Below, in pieces: positions 7,969 to 40,701 of a DNA stretch of 43,045 nucleotides. The notes under the pieces are model-generated. The model was not told where the DNA came from and made no database searches. It worked only from the letters and a program-made list of their open reading frames with translations. Position numbers and translations under genes: made by a program. The stretch is from Candidatus Mediterraneibacter intestinigallinarum (GTDB lineage Bacteria > Bacillota > Clostridia > Lachnospirales > Lachnospiraceae), in NCBI GenBank assembly GCA_019119265.1, contig DWXI01000105.1, positions 1 to 43,045 of the forward strand, written 5' to 3'. Position 1 is the first letter of the stretch. Each line of letters begins with the position of its first letter.

Positions 7969-8742
7969 CTAATGCTTCATTCTCTTTGCCATTTTACGTG
8001 TTGAACGCCGTTTCGTCCTTTTGACTTTCTGCGGCGCGCCCTCCTGGATCGGAATGGAAGTCAGCACATTCAGGCCCAGATAATTTTCCACATCATCCGG
8101 AGTTTTGATCGTGTCATCCAGTATATAGATCAGTACAAGTATACCGACCGCCAGCACAATACCAAGCATTCCGCCAATGGCCGTGTTCCTCATCACAGAC
8201 GGGGAAGACGGGCTCTGCGGCAGGTTTGCCTCTTCAATCGTGTTTACCGCTTCGATATCCATGATTTCCTTGATCTTGGTACTTGCTGATTCCCTCAGGG
8301 CGTCGGCTATTTCCCGCGCCAATTCGGGATCTTCGTTTTCTACCTGTATCGTCAGGATACGGGTATTCTCTGTATTTGTTGTGGTAATCATACCGCTGAG
8401 ATCGTCGGTGGTCATTTCCAGATTAAGCACCGATATAACTTCTTCAAGCACAGTACGGCTCTTGATGAGCTCCATGTAATCCTGTGTCAGCTGAGTTCCT
8501 GTCTGCAGATCGCTTGACGTCACGCCTGCAGTTCCGTCTGACCTGTTCAAGACATACATACTGGTCGATGATGTGTACTTAGGAGTAATAAACAGCTGGG
8601 TTCCTGCAAAAGCCGCCAGGGCTGTGAGGATTCCCACCAGTATGATGATGTGTATCTTGCCTAACAGCACGCTGAACAGTTCTGTCAGATCAATAGTTAT
8701 TTCATCATTTTCAAAATCACGTGTTGCTCTGTCCTGATTCAT
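7969..8742 (-). CDS. cpsC: Wzz/CpsC-like chain length determinant, kinase adaptor
   Basis: 257 aa; two TM segments, Wzz region IDLTELFSVLLGKIHIIILVGILTALAAFAGTQLFITPKYTSSTSMYVL, PQSPSSPS motif before second TM. Confidence 0.9.
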   Translation of the reverse strand: MNQDRATRDFENDEITIDLTELFSVLLGKIHIIILVGILTALAAFAGTQLFITPKYTSSTSMYVLNRSDGTAGVTSSDLQTGTQLTQDYMELIKSRTVLEEVISVLNLEMTTDDLSGMITTTNTENTRILTIQVENEDPELAREIADALRESASTKIKEIMDIEAVNTIEEANLPQSPSSPSVMRNTAIGGMLGIVLAVGILVLIYILDDTIKTPDDVENYLGLNVLTSIPIQEGAPQKVKRTKRRSTRKMAKRMKH

Positions 8743-9466
8743 CTTTCTTCTTTTTCCTCAGCATGATTCTCGCATTGCTGAAGAATATCCTCCTCGCATA
8801 TTCTTCTCCATATTTTTTTTCTACATATTCGGCTGCCTTGCGCATACGCGGCGGGCGGCCTTTTGGACTATGAGCATCTGTTCCTACACAGAACACCAGC
8901 CGGTGTTCCAAAAGCTGCTTTACGAATCGCTTCATCTTCCAACCGTTTTCTCCGGTAATGCTGTCTGCATTTACCTGGATCCGAACTCCCATGTGCTTGA
9001 GATGTTCAGCATTGCCGATATCCTTGTACATACACGGATATCTCTCGATATGCGCCAGTATCACTTCGTACCCTTTCATCTGTATCTGCTGGATACACTG
9101 ACAGATATAATCAAAAGTGTCCGAATGAGAGAATTCTACCAGCACAAATCTCGTTTTGTTCATTGTAAGTATCTTGCCTGCCCGGAGTCTGTCCGGGATG
9201 TCTTGTCCGAAATATATCTCTGTTCCGAGATATACTCTGAGCTTGTCGCTGATCTTTGCCGCTTCTTCGCGGGCGACCTTCAATTGCTTTCTCAGCTCAC
9301 GCGGGGGTTTTCTCCCTCGCTGCGGGTGGTGATGGGGAGTTGCTATTATATAGCGGATCCCTTCATCATATGCCATCTGGAGCATCTGCCTCATATCGTC
9401 TATGCTCTGCGCTCCGTCATCCACATCGGCGAGCACGTGGCAATGTGTGTCAACAATTCGTTCCAT
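8717..9466 (-). CDS. cpsB: CpsB/CapC (PHP-fold) tyrosine-protein phosphatase
   Basis: 249 aa; IVDTHCHVLADVDDGAQSIDD, IATPHHHP, LAHIERYP, GTDAHSPKGRPPRM. Confidence 0.92.
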   Translation of the reverse strand: MERIVDTHCHVLADVDDGAQSIDDMRQMLQMAYDEGIRYIIATPHHHPQRGRKPPRELRKQLKVAREEAAKISDKLRVYLGTEIYFGQDIPDRLRAGKILTMNKTRFVLVEFSHSDTFDYICQCIQQIQMKGYEVILAHIERYPCMYKDIGNAEHLKHMGVRIQVNADSITGENGWKMKRFVKQLLEHRLVFCVGTDAHSPKGRPPRMRKAAEYVEKKYGEEYARRIFFSNARIMLRKKKKDESGQSNT

Positions 9467-9560
9467 TCACATTCTCCTGACATTTATATAAATCGTTCCA
9501 TCGGTATAGATTACACGATTTTTCAAACTTTTTCAAGCTATATATGCATTCTCCTTTAAT

Positions 9561-9589
9561 AATATACGCTGAGATATTACATTTGTCAA
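9561..9589 (-). promoter_or_regulatory. Sigma-A-type promoter of capsule operon
   Basis: Minus strand TTGACA (9584-9589), 17-nt spacer, TATATT (9561-9566). Confidence 0.75.
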
Positions 9590-9598
9590 CAATTTTTA

Positions 9599-9609
9599 CC
9601 CCCCCCCCC
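9599..9609. repeat. Homopolymeric (C)11/(G)11 tract upstream of capsule promoter
   Basis: Eleven consecutive C on + strand, ending 9 bp upstream of the -35 box on the minus strand. Confidence 0.95.
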
Positions 9610-9656
9610 GGTATATTGGGAATATGTTACATAACTGGATAAACAGCCTTATTTTC

Positions 9657-10820
9657 TCATAATCTGGATTTAAAATCTTCATATCCGAACGTACGTATGA
9701 TCTCACATGTTCCATCTTCCCGCTCCAATGCTATATCCGGGAGCCGCATTCCGTTAAATGTGTTGTTTTTTACCATCGTATAAATGGCCATATCCTGGAA
9801 CTCCAGCCGCTCTTTGTATACCAGGGGATGGTCGAAGGCATAGTCGCCGATCACGTCTCCCGCCAGGCATGTAGGCCCGGCCAGCCGGTATGTATACGGG
9901 AGCGCCCTGCTGCCCGGTTCCCCTGCATTTTTCAGTGGCGGACGGTAAGGCATCTCCAGCACATCCGGCATATGGCAGGCGGCGGATGCGTCCAGGATTG
10001 CTGTTTTCATTTTATTATCCACAATCTCCAGTACTTCCGTGATCAATTCTCCTGCGTTAAGGGCTACAGCTTCGCCCGGTTCCAGATAAACTTCCACGCC
10101 ATATGTCTCCGACACATGGCGGATACATTTCTTCAGCAGTTCCAGATCGTATCCTTCCCTGGTGACATGGTGCCCTCCTCCGAAGTTCACCCATTTCATC
10201 TGCGACAGCCACCGGCCAAACTTTTCCTCAACGACCTTCAAAGTCGTTTCCAGCGCATCTGCATCCTGCTCGCAAAGAGTATGGAAATGCAGTCCGTCCA
10301 GATCCAGGATCTCATCCTCTGCCAGATCCTGCTCGAATCTCTCCAGAGTAGTTCCCAGCCGGGAATACGGCGCGCAGGGATCATAGATAGCATGTCCTTC
10401 CTGAGTGGAACACTCTGGATTGATGCGCAGACCCATGCCCTTTTCACATCCGGTTTCAGCTGCATACTCCCTGACCTGATCCTTATACCTGCGGAACTGG
10501 GCCGGGGAATTAAAAATGATGTGATCGCACATTCGCAGGATTTCAGGCATCTCTTCCTCTTTATATGCAGGTGAGAAAATATGGTTCTCCTTCCCCATCT
10601 CCTCATATCCCAGCCTCGCCTCATACAGCCCGCTGGCTGTCGTTCCGTCCAGATATTCCCCGATCAGAGGATACACCCTGTACATGGAGAATGCCTTCTG
10701 GGCCAGCAGGATATGACATCCCGTCTCCTCCCGGAGATTTTTTAATATCTCAAGATTCTCCCTTAACTTTCTCTCCCGTATTACATAACAGGGAGTTCTC
10801 AGATCATTTCTCCTGAGCAC
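9657..10820 (-). CDS. nspC: Carboxynorspermidine/carboxyspermidine decarboxylase
   Basis: 387 aa; fold III PLP decarboxylase, TPCYVIRERKLRENLE, LLAQKAFSM, WVNFGGGHHVTREGYD, EPGEAVALNAG, GPTCLAGDVIGDY. Confidence 0.92.
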   Translation of the reverse strand: MLRRNDLRTPCYVIRERKLRENLEILKNLREETGCHILLAQKAFSMYRVYPLIGEYLDGTTASGLYEARLGYEEMGKENHIFSPAYKEEEMPEILRMCDHIIFNSPAQFRRYKDQVREYAAETGCEKGMGLRINPECSTQEGHAIYDPCAPYSRLGTTLERFEQDLAEDEILDLDGLHFHTLCEQDADALETTLKVVEEKFGRWLSQMKWVNFGGGHHVTREGYDLELLKKCIRHVSETYGVEVYLEPGEAVALNAGELITEVLEIVDNKMKTAILDASAACHMPDVLEMPYRPPLKNAGEPGSRALPYTYRLAGPTCLAGDVIGDYAFDHPLVYKERLEFQDMAIYTMVKNNTFNGMRLPDIALEREDGTCEIIRTFGYEDFKSRL

Positions 10821-29111: not shown

Positions 29112-29153
29112 TTACATATATTTTCTGTAAAAATCTTATTCAGAAATTTGCTT

Positions 29154-29786
29154 CTACGGTCTCTCTTCACTCCAGCTTAATATCTCCCCGGTATCAGCGT
29201 CAATCTCAAATTCATACTCCATTTGTTCGTAGATGATATTACCTTCGTATGTCATTCTTCCATCGTCACGTTCCAGTTCGATCCTGATATCGTTCTCCGT
29301 AGCTCCGGGCACCTTTGCAAGTGCTGTTGCAATTGCATCTTCCCTGCTTACAGCTGCTCCGGAATTGTCTGTGTTCTGCCCTCCGCCGTTATTCTGCTCT
29401 ACATCAGATCCCAGGATCTGTCCGTCAGATGCAAGAATCTCATAATCATATTCCTTCTGCCCCACATCGAACCTCACATCATATGTCAGTCTGCCGTCAT
29501 CCCTGTCCTGTGATACCTGAAGCCGTGAGATGTCAGATTCGCTGACGCCGGCCGCATCCAACGCCGCCTGCAAAGCTGCGTCCTCTCCAATATCCTGATT
29601 GCCCCCATTGTTATTCTGTGCTGTGTTCTGGGTATCATTTTGAGCATTACTCTGTGCGCCGCTTTCCTGGCCGCTCTGAGAAGACTGGTTTTCCACCGGC
29701 GTCGTCTGAGATCCTGCACTGCCGCATCCTGTAAATACTCCTGCTGCCATCACTGCGATAATTGCTGCTATTGTTAATCTTTTCAT
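29154..29786 (-). CDS. Lipoprotein with two PepSY domains
   Basis: MKRLTIAAIIAVMAAGVFTGCGSAG lipobox; Q/N/S-rich linker; two repeats ending DDGRLTYDVRFDVGQKEYDYEI and DDGRMTYEGNIIYEQMEYEFEIDADTGEI. Confidence 0.88.
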   Translation of the reverse strand: MKRLTIAAIIAVMAAGVFTGCGSAGSQTTPVENQSSQSGQESGAQSNAQNDTQNTAQNNNGGNQDIGEDAALQAALDAAGVSESDISRLQVSQDRDDGRLTYDVRFDVGQKEYDYEILASDGQILGSDVEQNNGGGQNTDNSGAAVSREDAIATALAKVPGATENDIRIELERDDGRMTYEGNIIYEQMEYEFEIDADTGEILSWSEERP

Positions 29787-29898
29787 TTTTCTTTCCCCTT
29801 TCTTATAGTGCAATTATTTTTTACTTTATTTGTTTTGTTGATACCACTATAACGTGGAAAGATTAAAACAACATTAAAGCATCTCATTTTTTGCTTAA

Positions 29899-31290
29899 TT
29901 ATTCAGGCATTGATTTGTATTCCCCCGTTGGGATACAAAAAGTAAACACACTTCCCTCTCCCTCTTTGCTTTCTGCTGAAACCCATCCTCCGTGCGCCTC
30001 CGCGATCCATTTCACCATAGACAAGCCAAGCCCTGAATGACTTCCGTCCGTCCTGGATGAATCAGCCCGGTAAAATCGTTCCCACATATGCGGGAGTGCT
30101 TCTGCAGAAATTCCTTCCCCGTGATCGCGCACACTTCCTACGACATCACCGTTTCTTTTTTCCAGCGTCACCTCTACCGTTCCGTTTTCCCTGCTGTGTC
30201 TCACGGCATTGGACAGCAGATTTACGATCATCCTTATATAAAATGTTTCATCCGCATCCGCCCATATGTCCGGAGTGATATTATTAACCACACGGATTCC
30301 CCGGCCTTCGCCGTCTGCAAGCATCTGCTGTTCTTCGGCCGCCATCTCCGTAAGTTCACTTAAATCAATCCACTCCCTGTTCAGCGGCTGCCGGCCCTGA
30401 TCCGCCCTGGATAAGAAAAGCAGCTGAGAAATCATATCAGCCATGCCTTTCGCTTTCCTGCGGATCAGGCTGATCTGAATCTTCTGTTCTTCTGTCAGTT
30501 CTTCATTGTCTAACATCGCATCACACTGGGCAAGGATTACGCTCACAGGAGTCCTGAGCTCATGTGATACGTCTGAAGTAAACCTTTGTTCCCTGCGAAA
30601 TACCTCCTCAAGTTCCGCCAGCATATCATCAAATGTTCCCGCCAGAACATAAATCTCATCCCGTTCTTTCCCACCGGTATCTGCTATGCCGATCCGTCGT
30701 GAAATGTCTGCATCCGCCCGGATTTTACGCACTGTATCCGTAATGCGTCGCACCGGAGCAAGAGTCCGACATGTAAAACGGTAGCCGATAATGGCTGTCG
30801 CCAGCACCATCAACGGAAGTATAATAAGGGCAAACCGCACAGTGACAGTAAAGCTTTCCTCCGCATCCGTCACTGATGTGATTCCCCGGACGTATACCGT
30901 CTGATCCCCGGACAGGCGATAAGACATATCATATACATACCACTCTCTGTTTCCGTCGCGGATCGTCCGCAACTCCCCGTCAGACAGTTCCGGCTGCCCG
31001 GCAAACCCATGCGGAAGTCTGCCATACAAAAAATACATATCCCTGTCATATAAAGACAGATATATATCCCTCTCTACAGAATAAAAATCCGAATCTATCC
31101 TGATCTCCCCGCCTCGGAGAGTTATGTTTTCCACACTCTCCTGCACACGATTCTCCAGCCTTGACTGAGCGGAAGAAAGGACTTCACGGCTACTGAGCGA
31201 AAACAGGATCGCCAGAGCCGCGCAGGTAAGGAGCGCCATAAAAACTGTATATAATAATGTAAGTTTTAATTTCAGCGATAATTTTCTCAT
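29899..31290 (-). CDS. HAMP-containing sensor histidine kinase
   Basis: 463 aa; FTSDVSHELRTPVSVILAQCDAML, NLLSNAVRHSREN, GSHSGLGLSMVKWIAEAHGG. Confidence 0.93.
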   Translation of the reverse strand: MRKLSLKLKLTLLYTVFMALLTCAALAILFSLSSREVLSSAQSRLENRVQESVENITLRGGEIRIDSDFYSVERDIYLSLYDRDMYFLYGRLPHGFAGQPELSDGELRTIRDGNREWYVYDMSYRLSGDQTVYVRGITSVTDAEESFTVTVRFALIILPLMVLATAIIGYRFTCRTLAPVRRITDTVRKIRADADISRRIGIADTGGKERDEIYVLAGTFDDMLAELEEVFRREQRFTSDVSHELRTPVSVILAQCDAMLDNEELTEEQKIQISLIRRKAKGMADMISQLLFLSRADQGRQPLNREWIDLSELTEMAAEEQQMLADGEGRGIRVVNNITPDIWADADETFYIRMIVNLLSNAVRHSRENGTVEVTLEKRNGDVVGSVRDHGEGISAEALPHMWERFYRADSSRTDGSHSGLGLSMVKWIAEAHGGWVSAESKEGEGSVFTFCIPTGEYKSMPE

Positions 31291-31314
31291 GCTTCTGCCC
31301 CTGCAATCTGTCTT

Positions 31315-31989
31315 TTATTTTTCGGCCTTCAATACATATCCAGCGCCGCGCACCGTATGAATCAGCTTCTGTTCATGCCCCTCATCGATCTTCTTGCGCA
31401 GGTAACGGATATAGACGTCGATCACATTGGATCCCCCTGCATAGTCAAAATTCCACAAATGCTGCTCCAGCCGGTCTCTTGAGAGCACGATTCCTTCGTT
31501 CTGGATCATATACCGGAGCAGAGCGAACTCCTTGCCCGAGAGCCTGATCTCCTGCCCGCCCCGCTTCACCTGCTGTGTGTCCATATGCACCTCAAGATCC
31601 GCCACCTTATAGCATGTCTTAGGCGCTTCTGCCGGCTTGCGCAGAAGCACACGTATCCGTGCCAGCAGTTCCTCAAAAGCGAAAGGCTTCACCAGATAAT
31701 CATTTGCCCCTGCATCCAGCCCGGACACCCGGTCCTCAATGCTGTCCTTTGCCGTCAGCAGGATCACCGGGGTACTGTCATTTCTGCGTCTCATCTTTTT
31801 CAATACACTGAGGCCGTCCATTACAGGCATCATGATATCAAGTACCGCAGCGTCATAGTCCGCGCTCTCAAGATACTCCAGCGCCTCCCGGCCGTCAAAA
31901 CAAGAGTCCACACTGTAATGTTCCGCTTTCAGACGACTTGTTATAAGGCGGTTCAGATCTTTCTCGTCTTCTGCTATCAATATTCTCAT
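31315..31989 (-). CDS. OmpR-family response regulator
   Basis: 224 aa; MRILIAEDEKDLNRLI, AVLDIMMPVMDGLSV, GANDYLVKPFAFEELLARIR, winged-helix C-terminus. Confidence 0.95.
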   Translation of the reverse strand: MRILIAEDEKDLNRLITSRLKAEHYSVDSCFDGREALEYLESADYDAAVLDIMMPVMDGLSVLKKMRRRNDSTPVILLTAKDSIEDRVSGLDAGANDYLVKPFAFEELLARIRVLLRKPAEAPKTCYKVADLEVHMDTQQVKRGGQEIRLSGKEFALLRYMIQNEGIVLSRDRLEQHLWNFDYAGGSNVIDVYIRYLRKKIDEGHEQKLIHTVRGAGYVLKAEK

Positions 31990-32050
31990 ACGACCATCTC
32001 CTTTATGGTTCCCAGTATACGCAAACTGCCGGGGATTGTAAAGCTGTCAC

Positions 32051-32079
32051 TTGACAATGCCCGGCACAGATTATATTCT
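32051..32079 (+). promoter_or_regulatory. Candidate promoter for Gfo/Idh/MocA gene
   Basis: TTGACA (32051-32056), 17-nt spacer, TATTCT (32074-32079). Confidence 0.5.
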
Positions 32080-32148
32080 GAAAATATCGGGAACAGACAT
32101 TGCCAGACGTCGGTATGTCGGGATAAGAATGTAAGGCGGTGAAACAAA

Positions 32149-33138
32149 ATGGAAATCAAAATAGGGATCATTGGAACAAACTTTATCAGCGACGACTTCT
32201 GCAACGCTGCGGTAAAGGTGCCGGGCGCCGTACTTCGGGCGGTATATTCAAGGAAGGAAGAAACAGGAGCTGCATTTGCAGAGCGCCACTCCATCCCCGA
32301 AGTATTTACAGACTATAAAAAATTCCTCTCATCGGATATTGACGCGGTCTATGTAGCCTCTCCCAATTTTATCCACTGCAGTCAGACGATCATGGCGCTG
32401 GAACACAAGAAACATGTCCTGTGCGAAAAGGTCATGGCGGTCAATGAAGCGGAAGTCCGATCCATGATCGACTGCGCCCGCCGTAATCAGGTCGTACTGC
32501 TTGAGGCAATGCGTCCGGACTTCGATCCGGCGTTTGATATCGTAGAACAGAATCTGAACCGCATCGGCCGACTGCGCAGGGCGACATTTGAATTCTGCCA
32601 GTATTCCAGCCGCTACGACAAGTTCCGCGAGGGCATTGTCATGAATGCCTTTGACCCCACGCTGGGGAATGCGGCTGTCATGGATATCGGTGTATACTGC
32701 ATCCACTCTCTCGTCCGCCTTTTCGGAATGCCGCAGGAGATACAAGCATTCTCCACAAAGCTTTCCAATGATTTCGACGGCAGCGGCATCGTACTTATGA
32801 AATATGAAACAATGATCGCAGAAGCTGTGTACTCCAAAATCTCCGTCTCGGTCAATCCCAGTGTGATCCAGGGCGAGGACGGATCCATCCTGATCGACTA
32901 TATCAGCAAGCCCGAAAAGATCTGCCTTCAGCTCAGGGAAGGCGCCCGCGACACACTGGAAGGCGCCGGCCGGGAGATACTGCCGTTCATTCCCGCAGAT
33001 AATAATATGATCTATGAAATACAGGAATTTATAAAACTTATCAGCGAAAACAATATCGCTCATAAATACCTGCAGTATTCACTGGATACGATCCGCGTCA
33101 TAGACGAGGTAAGACGACAGACATGTATAGACATATGA
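32149..33138 (+). CDS. Gfo/Idh/MocA family oxidoreductase
   Basis: 329 aa; IKIGIIGTNFISDDFCNAA, AVYVASPNFIHCSQTIMALEHKKHVLCEKVMAVNEAEV. Confidence 0.93.
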   Translation: MEIKIGIIGTNFISDDFCNAAVKVPGAVLRAVYSRKEETGAAFAERHSIPEVFTDYKKFLSSDIDAVYVASPNFIHCSQTIMALEHKKHVLCEKVMAVNEAEVRSMIDCARRNQVVLLEAMRPDFDPAFDIVEQNLNRIGRLRRATFEFCQYSSRYDKFREGIVMNAFDPTLGNAAVMDIGVYCIHSLVRLFGMPQEIQAFSTKLSNDFDGSGIVLMKYETMIAEAVYSKISVSVNPSVIQGEDGSILIDYISKPEKICLQLREGARDTLEGAGREILPFIPADNNMIYEIQEFIKLISENNIAHKYLQYSLDTIRVIDEVRRQTCIDI

Positions 33139-33164
33139 TTCAAACGAAAGGAGCGACCAGTCAA

Positions 33165-34439
33165 ATGGACCAGGTAATTTCTAAAGAACTGGCAAAGTTT
33201 CTGGAAAACAGTCCTTCTGTTTTCCATGCAGTTGATAATATGGAGAACATTCTCACCAGGGAAAAGTTTACGCGCCTGTATGAAAACCAGAGATGGGCGC
33301 TCAGCCCCGGCGGCAGATACTTTGTCGCAAGAAACGGTTCTTCCCTGATTGCATTCACAATCCCCGATCATGATTTCAAAGGCTTGCGGATCATGGCAAG
33401 TCACAGTGATTCTCCTACATTCAAGATCAAGGAGAATCCTGAGCTGGAGACAGACGGACATTACATCCGCCTTAATGTAGAGCGTTACGGCGGTATGCTA
33501 TGCGCTCCCTGGTTCGACCGTCCGCTCTCCGTGGCCGGTCGTGTGATCGTGAAAGATCCCGTTTCCGGATCTTTCCTCACAAAGCTGGTAAATATCGACC
33601 GGGATCTGGTTCTCATCCCCAACCTTGCCATTCATATGAATCGGGAAGCCAACAATAGTTACAAATACAATGCCCAGAAGGATATGCTTCCCTTATACGG
33701 CGACCTGTCAGCGAAAGATACATTTATAAAGACCGTCGCAGACGCCGCCGGGGTACGCGAATCTGACATTCTCGGTCATGACCTCTTTCTCTACAACAGA
33801 GAAAAGGCAAGTATATGGGGAGCTTCCGGTGAATTTATCTCCTGCGGGCGACTGGACGACCTGCAGTGTACATTTGCATCACTGAAAGGTTTCCTTGCCG
33901 GGAAGAAACAGGAATACATGGCGCTTCACTGTGTCTTTGACAATGAAGAGACCGGAAGCGGCACAAAACAGGGCGCGGCATCCACTTTCCTGTATGATAC
34001 ACTGACACGGATCCATGACAGCCTTGGTCTTACCCGTGAAGATTATCTGATCCATCTTGCAGACAGTCTGATGATCTCCGCTGACAACGCCCACGCAGTT
34101 CATCCGAACTACACGGACAAAGCCGATCCGTCCAACCGACCGTATCTAAACAGCGGCATCGTGATCAAATTCAATGCGAACCAGAAATACTGCACTGACG
34201 GGATATCAGCCGCCATGTTCCGTGACATCTGTCGAACCGCAGATGTTCCGGTCCAGACTTTTACCAACCGTTCAGATATGGCCGGCGGTTCTACACTGGG
34301 AAATATCTCCAATACACAAGTTGCGCTCAATACTGTGGATATCGGTCTTCCGCAGCTCGCCATGCATTCTCCTTACGAAACTGCGGGCGTAAAAGACACT
34401 GGATATCTTATACGGGCGGCAGAAGAGTTTTTCAGATAG
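33165..34439 (+). CDS. M18 family aminopeptidase
   Basis: IMASHSDSPTFKIKENPE, VFDNEETGSGTKQGAAST, DNAHAVHPNYTDKADPSNRPYLNSGIVIKFNANQKYCTDG, AGGSTLGNI; start at 33165 after AAAGGAGCG. Confidence 0.94.
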   Translation: MDQVISKELAKFLENSPSVFHAVDNMENILTREKFTRLYENQRWALSPGGRYFVARNGSSLIAFTIPDHDFKGLRIMASHSDSPTFKIKENPELETDGHYIRLNVERYGGMLCAPWFDRPLSVAGRVIVKDPVSGSFLTKLVNIDRDLVLIPNLAIHMNREANNSYKYNAQKDMLPLYGDLSAKDTFIKTVADAAGVRESDILGHDLFLYNREKASIWGASGEFISCGRLDDLQCTFASLKGFLAGKKQEYMALHCVFDNEETGSGTKQGAASTFLYDTLTRIHDSLGLTREDYLIHLADSLMISADNAHAVHPNYTDKADPSNRPYLNSGIVIKFNANQKYCTDGISAAMFRDICRTADVPVQTFTNRSDMAGGSTLGNISNTQVALNTVDIGLPQLAMHSPYETAGVKDTGYLIRAAEEFFR

Positions 34440-34495
34440 AAAAATTCTTTCGAATACAAACCATTTGCACACTGACGATTTATTGAGGATACACT

Positions 34496-35587
34496 ATGAG
34501 AGATCAAAAGGATTCAATATATAAAATACTCCGGCTTGCCAGCTCTGTAGATCCGGCGCTTTTCGGCGCGCTTCTGATCATCCGCCATGTGTCACCCGGA
34601 TTCATCCCAACATACAGGCAGCTGACGTTAGAAGATATGCAAGATTCCCGAATACCAGAGAATGATTGCGACTGTACTCCTTGGCAGATTGTCGCTGATG
34701 CCCCAAAGGGCAAGGTGATATCTTCTGCTATAGCAGCTCTTTCTGCCATCCGTTCCCACAGCCCATTGTTTGACTGCCTGACGGAAAAGCTAAAATACGC
34801 TCCACCGACCGAAACCAATGAATTAATAGATCTAATCCATATCCTGTCGCATATTTCAACCGGAAATCACGCACTTGCCGAAATATATGAAGTTTTTTTG
34901 TCTTCATGGTTTCCGTCAGACACACAACTGCACGCCGCAAAATCCTCAGGCGATATCTATACACCCCGCGATGTTTCCACCCTTATTTGGGAACTTTTGG
35001 ATTTAAACGGAAAAACTTTCTACGATCCCTGCTGCGGGAGCGGTTCCCTTCTGGCCCGCGCCTTTTTATCCCTGCCTCTAAAAAAAGAGGTACGGTTATT
35101 CGGACAGACAAACGATCTTCTTTCATACTGTATCTGTCAGACTTACTTTTTCCTTCTGGACATTCCTGTTGATTTAGCCGGCATGTCCGGTAACACTCTT
35201 GTCAAAGATTTGCATGCCGAAAAGCAGTTTGACCGTATCGCGACGAATCCGCCCTTTAATCAGGCCCGCTGGTGCGATAGCGGCTACATTTATGACAGGC
35301 GCTGGCAGTATGGCATTCCGCCTCGTTCCAACGCAAACTTTGCATGGCTCCAGCATGTCATCAGCCATCTTTCAGATCAGGGCAGAGCCGCCGTCATCTT
35401 GTCAAACGGCTCTTTAAGCGCTCAGAATCATGCAGAACATGAAATACGACGCAGGATTCTGGACGATGGTTTAATCGAAGCAATCATCGCCCTGCCTCCA
35501 AAATTGTTTTTTAATACAAAAGTTCCCTGTTGTATCTGGCTTCTGCGAAAGCCTAAGGTACCGGGGGGCCCCCATCCTCATGATTGA
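34496..35587 (+). CDS. N6-adenine DNA methyltransferase (HsdM-like), catalytic part; frame broken at 35563-35573
   Basis: SGDIYTPRDVSTLIWELLDLNGKTFYDPCCGSGSLLARAF (SAM motif I), RIATNPPFNQARW (NPPF motif IV); terminates at KPKVPGGPHPHD*, whereas the shifted frame continues PILMIDARYAG. Confidence 0.88.
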   Translation: MRDQKDSIYKILRLASSVDPALFGALLIIRHVSPGFIPTYRQLTLEDMQDSRIPENDCDCTPWQIVADAPKGKVISSAIAALSAIRSHSPLFDCLTEKLKYAPPTETNELIDLIHILSHISTGNHALAEIYEVFLSSWFPSDTQLHAAKSSGDIYTPRDVSTLIWELLDLNGKTFYDPCCGSGSLLARAFLSLPLKKEVRLFGQTNDLLSYCICQTYFFLLDIPVDLAGMSGNTLVKDLHAEKQFDRIATNPPFNQARWCDSGYIYDRRWQYGIPPRSNANFAWLQHVISHLSDQGRAAVILSNGSLSAQNHAEHEIRRRILDDGLIEAIIALPPKLFFNTKVPCCIWLLRKPKVPGGPHPHD

Positions 35588-36533
35588 CGCCAGATATGCC
35601 GGATTTTCAGATAAGAACGGAATTTCGCCCAAAACTGGTCCCAAACTGGTCGACACTGTTCTGAGACATCGAAGCGGAGCGCTTGAGGGGAAATGCAGCT
35701 GGTATGCCGTAGTTTCTCCGAACGACATCGCACGGGAACACTATATACTCAGTCCGAATCTTTACACAAAGCCCGTTTCGATTTCACCGGCCTCTCTGAT
35801 AATCCACCGCCCGGCTTTTCTAAAGCTGATTGACAAATTGAGTACGTTTCCAGAATGTCGCCCAATTTTACCCTGCATCCAGCTATGGAGGCATGCTAAA
35901 TACTCATCACACTGGAAAAATTTTCTTTGGACGGATCTATATCAAGTCTCCGGCGGACTGGCAAAAAAGAGAGAATTTTTCGGACACGGTGTTCCCATGG
36001 CGGATGTAAAAACTGTAATCCGCCATACCTTTCTTCCCGACGCTCTGTCTTCTTCCGTTGAACTTTCAGAAGCAGAGTTTGAAAAATATCGTATCAAAGC
36101 CGGAGATATCCTGATCAACAGAACGAGTGAAACCATTGCAGAACTTGCCTGCTGTTGTATCGCAGCACATGATTACAATGCAGTCTATGGCGGTTATCTG
36201 AAACGACTCCGCCCGCTGCCCGACTCACCGGTCTCCCCTTTTTATATGGCCGCCTATCTCAACAGCCATATTTACCGGCTGGAAGTCGAAAACAACATTC
36301 CCGCCTGCACGACCAGAGCAAACATCAGCACAGAAAGACTTTCACGGATACATATTTATTATCCCGAATCAGACATGCAGAAAATACTCGGAGATACCAT
36401 ATTCTCTGTCAGACAATTTCAGAAAGAGTGTCAGGATTCCAGATTATCCGACCTGTTGAACCGGTTTATTCGGCTGTTGATTGAACAGTTTATCACATAT
36501 CCCATACTTCAGACACAGCAAAAGGAGGAATAA
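35580..36533 (+). CDS. Continuation of the methyltransferase: HsdM C-terminal part plus single specificity (TRD)-like domain, likely one gene with 34496-35587
   Basis: MIDARYAGFSDKN... is the expected HsdM continuation; later IKAGDILINRTSETIAELACCCIA...AAYLNSHIYRLEVENNIPACTTRANISTERLSRIHIYYP resembles HsdS/TRD text. Confidence 0.75.
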   Translation: MIDARYAGFSDKNGISPKTGPKLVDTVLRHRSGALEGKCSWYAVVSPNDIAREHYILSPNLYTKPVSISPASLIIHRPAFLKLIDKLSTFPECRPILPCIQLWRHAKYSSHWKNFLWTDLYQVSGGLAKKREFFGHGVPMADVKTVIRHTFLPDALSSSVELSEAEFEKYRIKAGDILINRTSETIAELACCCIAAHDYNAVYGGYLKRLRPLPDSPVSPFYMAAYLNSHIYRLEVENNIPACTTRANISTERLSRIHIYYPESDMQKILGDTIFSVRQFQKECQDSRLSDLLNRFIRLLIEQFITYPILQTQQKEE

Positions 36534-36536
36534 AAG

Positions 36537-37424
36537 ATGACGCAACGAGACCAGAAATGGCTGGTATTGCTTTATTGCCTCGCCGAACTCAGAGGCGGCG
36601 CACAGCGCAATCTTGTATTACAGCACATACAAGATCAGGGTTACTGGTACAAAAACGACCAGAATGATACCTATCGCACCACACGCAGGGAAAGTGTATG
36701 GAGAAATGATTTTTCTTATGAGCGCCAGCATTTGGTAGAGGAAGGCTACATGAAAAGCGGAATTCCCGGCAGATGGGAAATAACGCAAACGGGCAGGGCG
36801 CTCCTTGCCCGTCTGATAAACAAGGCGCTAAACCGGCCTGCAGATGAAAATCTCTGCTATACCCCTGTATTCTTCCAAGAATTAATACAGGAGCAGGAAG
36901 ATGATCAATATCCAACGAGCGGACAGCCCGGATCCAATGCGAATGCAACTCCCGGGAATACAGCCCGGCCGAATGTTCCGAAGCCTCCAATGTCGAACAA
37001 GCCTCGGGCTCCAAGATCACCTTCTATATCATCTTCCGGCAAGCGTATTTACCCGCGCTCCGCAGCTGTTTCCCTGAACGCTCTCAATCTGGCCGGAAAT
37101 GTATGCGCTGTCAATCCGGATCACCCCTCTTTTCTCCGAAGAGACCGGAGTGCTATGTATATGGAGCCCCATCACCTGATTCCAATGTCTCTGACAGATT
37201 ATTTTAATGTCGATCTGGACAGGGAACAGAATATATTTTCTCTGTGCAGTAATTGTCATAATCGAATACATTACGGAACAAAGGAAGATGTAAAAATCTT
37301 GATCACCAAACTTTTCTCATCCAGAGAAGATGATATCTGCTCTATTCTCGGGAAAAAAATCACCATAGACGAACTCTGCCGAATCTATGACACGATGGCA
37401 AAGAAAAAACGCCATAGGCACTGA
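36537..37424 (+). CDS. HNH endonuclease with N-terminal winged-helix (Mrr_N-like) domain
   Basis: 295 aa; N-terminal LYCLAELRGGAQRNLVLQHI...YERQHLVEEGYMKSGIPGRWEITQTGRALL; C-terminal HNH MEPHHLIPMSLTDYFNVDLDREQNIFSLCSNCHNRIHYG; follows MTase by 3 nt. Confidence 0.8.
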   Translation: MTQRDQKWLVLLYCLAELRGGAQRNLVLQHIQDQGYWYKNDQNDTYRTTRRESVWRNDFSYERQHLVEEGYMKSGIPGRWEITQTGRALLARLINKALNRPADENLCYTPVFFQELIQEQEDDQYPTSGQPGSNANATPGNTARPNVPKPPMSNKPRAPRSPSISSSGKRIYPRSAAVSLNALNLAGNVCAVNPDHPSFLRRDRSAMYMEPHHLIPMSLTDYFNVDLDREQNIFSLCSNCHNRIHYGTKEDVKILITKLFSSREDDICSILGKKITIDELCRIYDTMAKKKRHRH

Positions 37425-37450
37425 GTGATATACAATACAACAGTTACAGA

Positions 37451-37491
37451 AAAGCTCCGCCTGCATCTTAAATCTCTGCAGACGGAGCTTT
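37451..37491. terminator. Bidirectional terminator-like hairpin
   Basis: AAAGCTCCGcCTGCA-(11 nt)-TGCAGaCGGAGCTTT between convergent genes. Confidence 0.75.
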
Positions 37492-37511
37492 CCGCTTATT
37501 TTATCGTTGTT

Positions 37512-38192
37512 TTAATATCCCCCGTTATTCTTATCGGGCGTCTTCACCTGACCGTATGACTGGAACCGGGTCATAACGTCAGCCATCTCCTGATCTGTAA
37601 GGACAACGCCTCTGTTTTGCCCTGCGGACTCGCACATCCACTGCATCTCTGCGCAGAATTCACAGCTCACAGCAAGATTAAACGCCTTTGCAAGACTGAC
37701 CCCGCATGTCACGAGACCATGATTGGCAAGCAGAACCGCGCGGCTCTCGCCGATCGCTCCTTCTACTTTCTCAGCCAGCTCATGTGTTCCGAAAGTCGCA
37801 TACTCCGCGCACGGAACCTCCGCTGTGCCTGCCGAAGCGATCACATAATGAACTGCTTTCAGCGGCTCCCGCATACATGCCAGCGCCGTACAGTATTTTG
37901 AATGTGTATGTACCACGCCGCGCGCCTCCGGTTTGATCTTATAAATGATCGAATGAAGTTCATGTTCGCTGGACGGCTTTCTGTTTCCTTCCACAATCTC
38001 TCCATCCAGAGTCATAACTACCACATCCTCGGGCAGCGTCTCAAAATATCCGATTCCCGACGGACTGATCGCCATGTATCCTGTCTCCGGATCAAAAATG
38101 CTGATATTGCCGGCAGTTCCCTTTGCCAGCCCTGCTGAACTCATCTTTTTTCCATACTCTACGATCTGTTTTCTTGCTTCTTCCATTAACAT
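37512..38192 (-). CDS. Class II aldolase (FucA/DrdA-like)
   Basis: 226 aa; TAGNISIFDPETGYMAISPSGIGYE-like start, PSSEHELHSIIYKIKPEARGVVHTHSKY, LLANHGLVTCG. Confidence 0.9.
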   Translation of the reverse strand: MLMEEARKQIVEYGKKMSSAGLAKGTAGNISIFDPETGYMAISPSGIGYFETLPEDVVVMTLDGEIVEGNRKPSSEHELHSIIYKIKPEARGVVHTHSKYCTALACMREPLKAVHYVIASAGTAEVPCAEYATFGTHELAEKVEGAIGESRAVLLANHGLVTCGVSLAKAFNLAVSCEFCAEMQWMCESAGQNRGVVLTDQEMADVMTRFQSYGQVKTPDKNNGGY

Positions 38193-38204
38193 AATCTTTT
38201 TCTC

Positions 38205-38980
38205 CTAATCCTGAAAATATCTTTTTATATCGTACGGTGAATAGATTCCCTTGTTGGTGACAATTCCATTACACAAATATGGGGGTGTAATATCAAATGC
38301 CGGGTACCATCCTTTTACCCCTTCCTTAGCCGTGCGTACCCCCATTGCCTCAAGCACCTGATTTCCATCTCTGTATTCAATTTTAACAGAATCTATCGTC
38401 GGATGCTTTTCATCCGGTGCTCCCGTAACATAATAAGGGATTCCGTAATGTTTGCAGACAATTGCAATCTGCAGGGTTCCCACTTTATTCACAATATGCC
38501 CGTCACAGGATATTGCATCCGCTGCTGACGTAAACACATCTACCAGTCCGTTCTGCATTGCAAATGCCGGCATATTATCTGTAATAACCGTTACGTCAAA
38601 CCCCTGATCATAAGCTACGCTGGCTGTCAGTCGGGCTCCCTGAAAATACGGTCTTGTTTCCGCACAGACAACTTTCATATCCTTTCCGCGTTCCCTGATT
38701 TCCTTTAACATAAGTCCTACAATTGTTTCACCGAAACACTGTGTCATAACAGACCCTTTGTCCGGGAATAGATCAACCAGGTATTTTGCCGTCTTCCCAA
38801 TCCGGATATACTTATTATTAACTTCTTCTACGGAGTGTTCAAAAACAGCCTTGTCTGCCGGTTTGCCTTCTGCAAGCGCTTCTTTCGCGGTATCTATACA
38901 TTTCTGTGTGATTGCTTCCATTCGCACAGTAGTCGTCGGACGCGCATGTGATAATGTATAGGAAGCTCCGTATCTGTATT
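38205..38980 (-). pseudogene. MtnA/eIF2B-alpha-like sugar-phosphate isomerase (DrdI-like), N-terminally truncated
   Basis: Homologous text begins at GASYTLSHARPTTTVRMEAITQ and runs to the C-terminus (CAETRPYFQGARLTA, AISCDGHIVNKVGTLQIAI); upstream part of the 289-aa ORF is antisense to a DeoR-type gene and not family-like. Confidence 0.7.
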
Positions 38981-39367
38981 CTGTGCGACTCCGCCAAAAA
39001 CAGCAAGATAACCCTCGTATGTGCAGGCGGACAGCTCCGGGCAAAAACCAGTTCTTTTGTAGGGTACAGGACAACCGACATGATCAGCAGTAATTTTGCC
39101 AATATAGCTTTCCTCAGCAATCCTGCCGTCAACATAACATACGGTTTGACCGACAACAACCTGAACGAGGCAAACGTTCGGAAATGTATGCTGGAACACT
39201 CCAAACAGCACATCTTCCTGATGGATCATACAAAATTTTCAAAAACAAGCAGCAATATATTCGGACAGCTTTCCGATATAGATGTACTGATCACAGACAA
39301 AAAACTGAGCAGAGACTGGGAAACATCACTCAGGACAAAAGGAGTGGCGTTTCATTATACAGCATGA
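38948..39367 (+). pseudogene. DeoR-family transcriptional regulator, C-terminal sensor domain only (HTH lost)
   Basis: ITLVCAGGQLRAKTSSFVGYRTTDMISS...GLTDNNLNEANVRKCMLEHSKQHIFLMDHTKFSKTSSNIFGQLSDIDVLITDKKLS is the DeoR C-terminal pattern; no helix-turn-helix present. Confidence 0.8.
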
Positions 39368-39417: not shown

Positions 39418-40701
39418 ATGTTCTTTTTCTTCGAAGATCTCTACTATACTAACGAGGATATCTGCCAGGCTTTTAAAAAAATATGTCTTGATAAGATGCT
39501 TGCTGACGGCTATTTTGACATGAGCACTTACATTTTCGGGCGTATCAGAAAAGAGGATATGTACGCCAGCCTGACCGCCCACAGATCAAAATACGCAGCC
39601 CTCTATCGCGGCGCCTACCCCAAAAAGGATACCATCGCCTCCGAATGGAAACAACGGCTTGCAAACACTGAACAGCAGGATGGACCAGATCAGACCGAAC
39701 TCACCTATGAAGAATCCGGCGCAATTGTAAACTGGATATACAGAGCATTAAAAAATTCCCAGGAAAGGGAGAAATTTACTGAATATATCTTTAAATCCTT
39801 AAAAGACTTACATCACATCCAGAATAATATCCGTTTCTCAAAAGGAGTCGTTTACAATGCCGCTAAAGTAAATCTTCATTTTCTTTCTTCTGTTTCAGGA
39901 GTCAACACTTTTCTTTCAACTCTGAAAAAGAAAGGAAACACTCTGTTTTTCCGCGGGCACGCAGATGCCAATTATATTCTGCGGCCTTCCATCATGCGTT
40001 CGACTCAACTCATGCAGAATGAAAGCCGTTTATATCACGAACTGCTGATCAACTGTCCTGAAGACTTCGAAAAATGCCATACGCACCTGGAGAAACTTGT
40101 TAAAATGCAACACTATGGTCTTCCCACACGGCTGCTCGACATCACCCGGAACCCGCTTGTAGCCCTGTACTTTGCCTGTGAAAGCCGCCCTGAGTCTTAC
40201 GGGGAACTGATCTTGATCTCTGCGGAAAATCATGAAATCAAATACCCGCAAAGCGATACCGTATCTGTTCTAGCAAGCCTTCCTGTGTTTTCTTATGAAA
40301 AGCAGCAGGAATTCTTAACACTGGCCCTTACTCCGGGCATATCCTCCCGGGAGTTCAATAAAAAGGCTGCCCGACTGATCCATGAAGTCCGCCTGGAAAA
40401 GCCGGCTTTCCAGGCGGAAGTAAACAGCGCTGATATTCTGAATAATTATATCGTTTATGCTCTAAAGAATAATAATAGAATCATAAAACAAGACGGCGCA
40501 TTTATTCTCTGCGGACTTTCCGCGGAAGCCGACTCTCTGGATCAATTCCGCTATAAAGAGCGCGGCAGAAAAACCGTCGTACTTATAGAGAAGAAAAAAA
40601 GAATCCTGGAACAGTTAGAAACTTTTTCGATCAACAGAGCATCTCTGTTTCCCGAAATAGAATGTGTCGCTGAATATCTGAAGAATAAGTTTGACCGGTA
40701 G
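39418..40701 (+). CDS. FRG domain-containing protein
   Basis: 427 aa; LFFRGHADANYILRPSIMR...LEKLVKMQHYGLPTRLLDITRNPLVALYFACES; RBS GGGAGG upstream. Confidence 0.88.
   Translation: MFFFFEDLYYTNEDICQAFKKICLDKMLADGYFDMSTYIFGRIRKEDMYASLTAHRSKYAALYRGAYPKKDTIASEWKQRLANTEQQDGPDQTELTYEESGAIVNWIYRALKNSQEREKFTEYIFKSLKDLHHIQNNIRFSKGVVYNAAKVNLHFLSSVSGVNTFLSTLKKKGNTLFFRGHADANYILRPSIMRSTQLMQNESRLYHELLINCPEDFEKCHTHLEKLVKMQHYGLPTRLLDITRNPLVALYFACESRPESYGELILISAENHEIKYPQSDTVSVLASLPVFSYEKQQEFLTLALTPGISSREFNKKAARLIHEVRLEKPAFQAEVNSADILNNYIVYALKNNNRIIKQDGAFILCGLSAEADSLDQFRYKERGRKTVVLIEKKKRILEQLETFSINRASLFPEIECVAEYLKNKFDR

Follow-up and report, generated by a model that had tools for sequence, protein, structure and literature searches.

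A one-base frame break at a G6C5 tract splits a predicted methyltransferase–specificity fusion gene in a restriction-modification cassette of Candidatus Mediterraneibacter intestinigallinarum

Introduction

A methyltransferase gene that is interrupted exactly at a mononucleotide tract raises the question of what the interruption represents, be it the off-state of a switchable enzyme, a mutated or functionally divided gene, or an error of sequencing. In this study, we address this question for a restriction-modification (R-M) locus of Candidatus Mediterraneibacter intestinigallinarum, for which a preliminary description had reported an HsdM-type gene broken at a G6C5 tract. The window, i.e. the whole stretch of DNA analysed, has a length of 43,045 nt and constitutes an entire contig (C185) of a 3.11-Mb, 88.5%-complete draft genome of 258 contigs (G000). 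The locus comprises the following features:

34441..37446, + strand: R-M cassette, flanked by a conserved M18 aminopeptidase gene on one side and a terminator/aldolase gene on the other
34496..35587, + strand: ORF1, 363 aa, predicted N-terminal part and most of an N6-adenine methyltransferase (MTase) core (PF02384, 1.8e-63)
35563..35573, + strand: GGGGGGCCCCC tract with the frame break (from the sequence)
35580..36533, + strand: ORF2, 317 aa, predicted final β-strand of the MTase core, then a linker and one specificity (target recognition) domain (HsdS-like PADLOC and NCBIfam matches, orthologue alignment)
36537..37424, + strand: nuclease gene, 295 aa, predicted Mrr_N winged helix and HNH domain (PF14338, 4.8e-08; PF01844, 1.1e-04)

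Results

Organisation of the cassette

The HsdM-type assignment made earlier is borne out by the PF02384 match of ORF1, which carries the motifs DPCCGSG and NPPF, and by its PDB relatives 3khk, 7vru and EcoR124II M. The neighbouring nuclease is likewise present as an apparently intact Mrr_N/HNH gene that begins 3 nt 3' of ORF2 and displays the HNH motif MEPHHLIP...N...CSNCHNRIHYG; its structure prediction is poor (pLDDT 45). ORF2 gave a weak structural-database match to EcoKI S (2y7c), and in the joined window protein the Pfam domain Methylase_S is undetected, while HsdS profiles do match. Judged by these matches, joined ORF1 and ORF2 encode a putative Type I-like N6-adenine MTase (M) fused to one specificity domain (S), and the locus is a predicted two-gene R-M cassette, in which an M-S fusion, each chain having one recognition domain, is paired with a separate Mrr_N/HNH nuclease.

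With Type I systems such as EcoR124II and EcoKI, the window shares the HsdM-like catalytic core and the HsdS-like recognition domain, but M and S are fused with only one target recognition domain (TRD), and an HNH nuclease replaces the HsdR translocase/nuclease; no HsdR gene is found within 34441–37446, where ORF1, ORF2 and the HNH gene are the only contents. The best PADLOC match of both ORFs is the MTase_I cluster PDLC03019, a long Type I MTase model that also covers the specificity domain and on whose 932 positions ORF1 (77–378) and ORF2 (509–693) are colinear. The window differs from this cluster by the split into two ORFs, the Mrr_N/HNH partner and the cassette without HsdR. The HNH domain of the nuclease is similar to that of EcoKMcrA (PDB 6ghc, E 7e-06), with a PADLOC match to mREase_IV, although in the window the nuclease has an N-terminal Mrr_N domain and its gene is paired with an MTase.

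The frame break at the G6C5 tract

The runs G6 (35563–35568) and C5 (35569–35573) form the 11-mer GGGGGGCCCCC on the + strand, which is unique in the 43-kb window, sits where the 363-aa and 317-aa ORFs abut in different frames and is present in one of 100 dinucleotide shuffles of the window. It constitutes the longest G/C tract of the MTase gene and, in a scan of the window, both the sole G run of at least 6 on the + strand and the sole site with at least four G followed by at least four C. ORF1 terminates a few codons past the tract with ...LLRKPKVPGGPHPHD and a stop, while ORF2 begins with MIDARYAGFSDKN in the +1 frame relative to ORF1, overlapping it by 8 nt at its ATG (ATGATTGA). Both frames are simultaneously open over 110 nt (35475–35584); homology to HsdM proteins (WF.xKNKKxxGK-TLFIDAR) and the intact orthologue described below places the shift within about 25 nt including the tract.

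Joined, the reading ...LLRKPKVPGGPILMIDARYAGFSDKN yields a protein of 678 aa, for which the N6_Mtase Pfam match is extended from profile positions 3–234 (215 bits, ORF1) to 3–306 of 311 (234 bits). Together with the gap-free orthologue alignment, this supports the earlier proposal that the two ORFs belong together. Apart from the break at the tract, all three ORFs of the cassette are uninterrupted. The one-base frameshift at G6C5, splitting the M-S gene in two, is confirmed as a genuine feature of the assembly, as the preliminary description had stated.

An intact orthologue in another family

Searching the joined protein against 371 genomes of the same class returned as top match a genome of another family (G890, E 1.9e-98), followed at 6.5e-62 by an ordinary HsdM some 500 aa long. 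At the locus of the top match (L227), the M-S fusion is contained in one uninterrupted frame of 563 aa, carries N6_Mtase and Methylase_S, matches PDLC03019 in one piece (144–698, 1.2e-115) and overlaps its Mrr_N/HNH nuclease gene by 4 nt. The M-S and nuclease pairs of the two loci are 35–36% identical, with 36% end to end for the nucleases. Across the break the alignment is gap-free (CSIWILSRKKARKGNILFIDAR against CCIWLLRKPKVPGGPILMIDAR), and the L227 DNA at this site is A-rich, with the G/C tract being absent. One tract length would give a full-length MTase, the joined frame matching the orthologue end to end. In the L227 fusion (8652–10343), the HsdM domain of about 110 aa with which the window protein begins is missing.

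Since the orthologue is uninterrupted, the split in the window is either derived or an artefact, and a fixed split shared by all members, which the preliminary description had left as an option and which we also considered as a trait common to the family, is excluded. The presence of intact paired orthologues in L227 further argues that the M-S fusion and the nuclease constitute a genuine two-gene unit. A sample of 359 genomes from across the phylum yielded no further full-length nuclease orthologues, and viral contigs scanned with ORF1 and with the nuclease alignment contained no relatives, so that the unit looks rare among the sampled genomes, with one other intact copy. HNH relatives within the same family (L065–L073) were rejected as M-S-paired orthologues, as they share the C-terminal HNH module only.

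Position of the break in the protein

The model predicted for the joined protein (mean pLDDT 68, pTM 0.63) is good for the MTase core and poor for the recognition domain. In this model the break falls at residues 358–359, in a hairpin between the strands 345–351 and 360–364. The tract had been placed at a catalytic/specificity junction, a claim that the model does not uphold: its predicted position is within the MTase core, where the break separates the last two β-strands, about 100 residues before the specificity domain. With the break between these strands, each half alone would be an incomplete MTase, and ORF1 alone is predicted to lack both the final strand of the core and the recognition domain.

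Presence and absence of the cassette

The sister genome G053, the closest relative compared, aligns to 29151–34440 and 37447–38966 of the window at 86–87% DNA identity. Only about 10 bp separate the two aligned blocks there (L082), and 34441–37446 is missing, so that the terminator and the aldolase gene come right after the M18 aminopeptidase gene. The cassette thus appears as a presence/absence difference of about 3.0 kb, which is most simply accounted for by an insertion, and we regard it as horizontally acquired.

Further differences are found downstream. Beyond the aldolase and MtnA-like genes, the window contains an FRG-domain gene (39418–40701), whose product matches the candidate anti-phage family PDC-S15 (PADLOC, 1.4e-85) and which is missing at this place in G053, where an unrelated 8.7-kb segment is found; with the cassette, this amounts to two defence-like presence/absence differences within 6 kb. 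DNA similarity to G053 ends at 38966, and the 5' part of the MtnA/IF-2B-like gene (38205–39074; 289 aa with a TTG start, compared to 345 aa in G053, L082:9178–10215) may be replaced or truncated.

Poly-G tracts at promoters

The genome holds only four tracts of at least nine G. One of them (G000:C176:44502–44528, L056) reads TTGACAAAAATATTCC-G11-TATAAT, i.e. the poly-G tract lies within the 21-bp spacer of a putative σ70 promoter, and the same promoter occurs in another species (G008:C40, L187) with G9 and a spacer of 19. Of 58 genomes of the genus, 14 contain TTGACA and, within 16 nt, at least G8, compared with 3 for the reversed control pattern. Most of the fetched sites (G005:C6, L186; G045:C6, L194; G055:C17, L196; G019:C87, L190; and others) run into a –10-like hexamer, with tracts of G8–G14 and spacers of 16–21 bp, and are situated mainly 5' of genes for predicted secreted proteins. 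From their sequence, the promoters with poly-G spacers in the genus resemble those at which spacer length drives phase variation, as described for fetA of Neisseria (PMC5320596), and phase variation is more plausible for them than for G6C5. In the window itself, a C11 tract (9599–9609; G11 on the minus strand) precedes a CpsB/CapC gene (8717–9466, PF19567, 4e-93) by about 130 bp and lies shortly before a TTGACA-N17-TATATT promoter; a capsule/EPS operon may be under phase-variable control here.

Discussion

The split of the M-S gene can reflect a real mutation or an error of the assembly. To place the break in context, we drew samples of 719 kb from this genome and 723 kb from G053 and compared their shared coding sequence of about 34,000 aa (102 kb), which contained two candidate frame breaks in G000, none of them at a homopolymer, and none in G053. 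About 30 further G/C tracts (at least 6, or 4+4) in coding DNA of the 719 kb from G000 lie almost all inside intact frames. A generally indel-prone assembly was rejected, since no homopolymer-linked break was seen in the 102 kb compared with G053, and this lack mildly favours a real slippage mutation over an error. A candidate frame break of G000 other than that at the tract was noted at L136:2574–2832; it is not at a homopolymer and shows in comparison with a 201-aa protein of G053. No second copy of the locus and no other tract length were found in the genome itself, plasmids, phages or viral contigs; the sole viral match to the tract pattern (L229) proved unrelated. Nor did a second strain of the species come to light.

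An error, with the true gene being a continuous 678-aa M-S fusion in an ordinary, active R-M system, is possible, though we consider it doubtful. There is a single break, located at the longest G/C tract and with everything else intact, the assembly is a draft of 258 contigs, and the intact nuclease gene is what one would expect next to an active MTase; the absence of homopolymer-linked breaks and the mostly intact frames around the other G6/C6 runs of the genome speak against it. The reading which we favour, at about even confidence, is a real and recent slippage mutation at G6C5, disabling or splitting the MTase. We take the shift as real because the three ORFs are otherwise undisrupted and no general excess of homopolymer frameshifts is observed. 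The order of events remains unexpected under this reading, as the MTase would have been lost before the nuclease, and in a draft assembly that is 88.5%-complete one error at the tract is possible.

That ORF1 and ORF2 are both translated and their products assemble, making the split functional or the gene recoded, is distinctly unlikely. ORF2 could be reached by coupled reinitiation at the ATG overlapping the end of ORF1 (ATGATTGA) or by +1 slippage, CCC followed by C permitting +1 re-pairing. The break lies, in the predicted model, in a hairpin after the catalytic motifs, the C5-MTases M.AquI and M.EcoHK31I are naturally split (PMC3404938), and the intact nuclease argues for persisting protection. 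However, the orthologue is fused, CCC-C is no rarity in frame, with 12 occurrences among the 11,034 codons of the window, and RNA folding is weaker than in shuffles (z +2.2) with no stimulatory structure. A programmed +1 frameshift at CCC-C was rejected, support from RNA structure and from conservation both being absent.

The preliminary description had further called such a tract typical for switching, which is not supported for G6C5. A phase-variable, phasevarion-like MTase with G6C5 as contingency tract could draw on a mononucleotide tract that lies in frame, the frames on both sides being open, on the apparent use of poly-G slippage at promoters in this genus and on the gonococcal NgoAV hsdS, which varies between 6 and 9 G's among strains (PMC9577141; PMC5320596). 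NgoAV resembles the window in having a short poly-G tract within a Type I R-M gene, where two ORFs are joined or separated by a change of one base (PMC9577141), but strain length variation and altered specificity are shown there, whereas the window tract is located in the MTase core and known from one assembly. Neisserial siaD switches at G7 (PMC5953494), while the cut-off used in the PhasomeIt survey of Neisseria is at least 9 G/C (PMC5953494), which neither G6 nor C5 reaches; moreover, the tract is not conserved in the L227 orthologue and the candidate variable tracts of this genome are G9–G11 and lie elsewhere. We therefore consider a true switch highly improbable: G6C5 could change its length occasionally, but nothing marks it as selected for switching. 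A wider view is that the M-S fusion is naturally split or slippage-controlled, with G6C5 switching the enzyme on and off, or with the two parts coming together again between the final pair of core strands, so that a single tract tunes both modification and Mrr_N/HNH restriction; this we regard as unlikely.

For the slippage mutation, which we prefer, we propose a model in which a recent single-base change at G6C5 in the sequenced population split the M-S gene. The MTase would most likely be off or strongly reduced, because neither the last core strand nor the recognition domain is part of ORF1, and making ORF2 would require reinitiation at the overlapping ATG. By analogy to Type I systems, the nuclease would probably be harmless in the split state, since it would need the M-S protein for target recognition. 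Reversion via the same tract may occur but should be rare, in line with a tract that is not a dedicated high-frequency switch.

If the frameshift were an error, the locus would be an ordinary, sparsely sampled R-M cassette with one more intact copy among the genomes searched. If it is real, this organism keeps an apparently intact restriction nuclease without a full-length MTase, and the dependence of Mrr_N/HNH nucleases on an M-S partner becomes testable.
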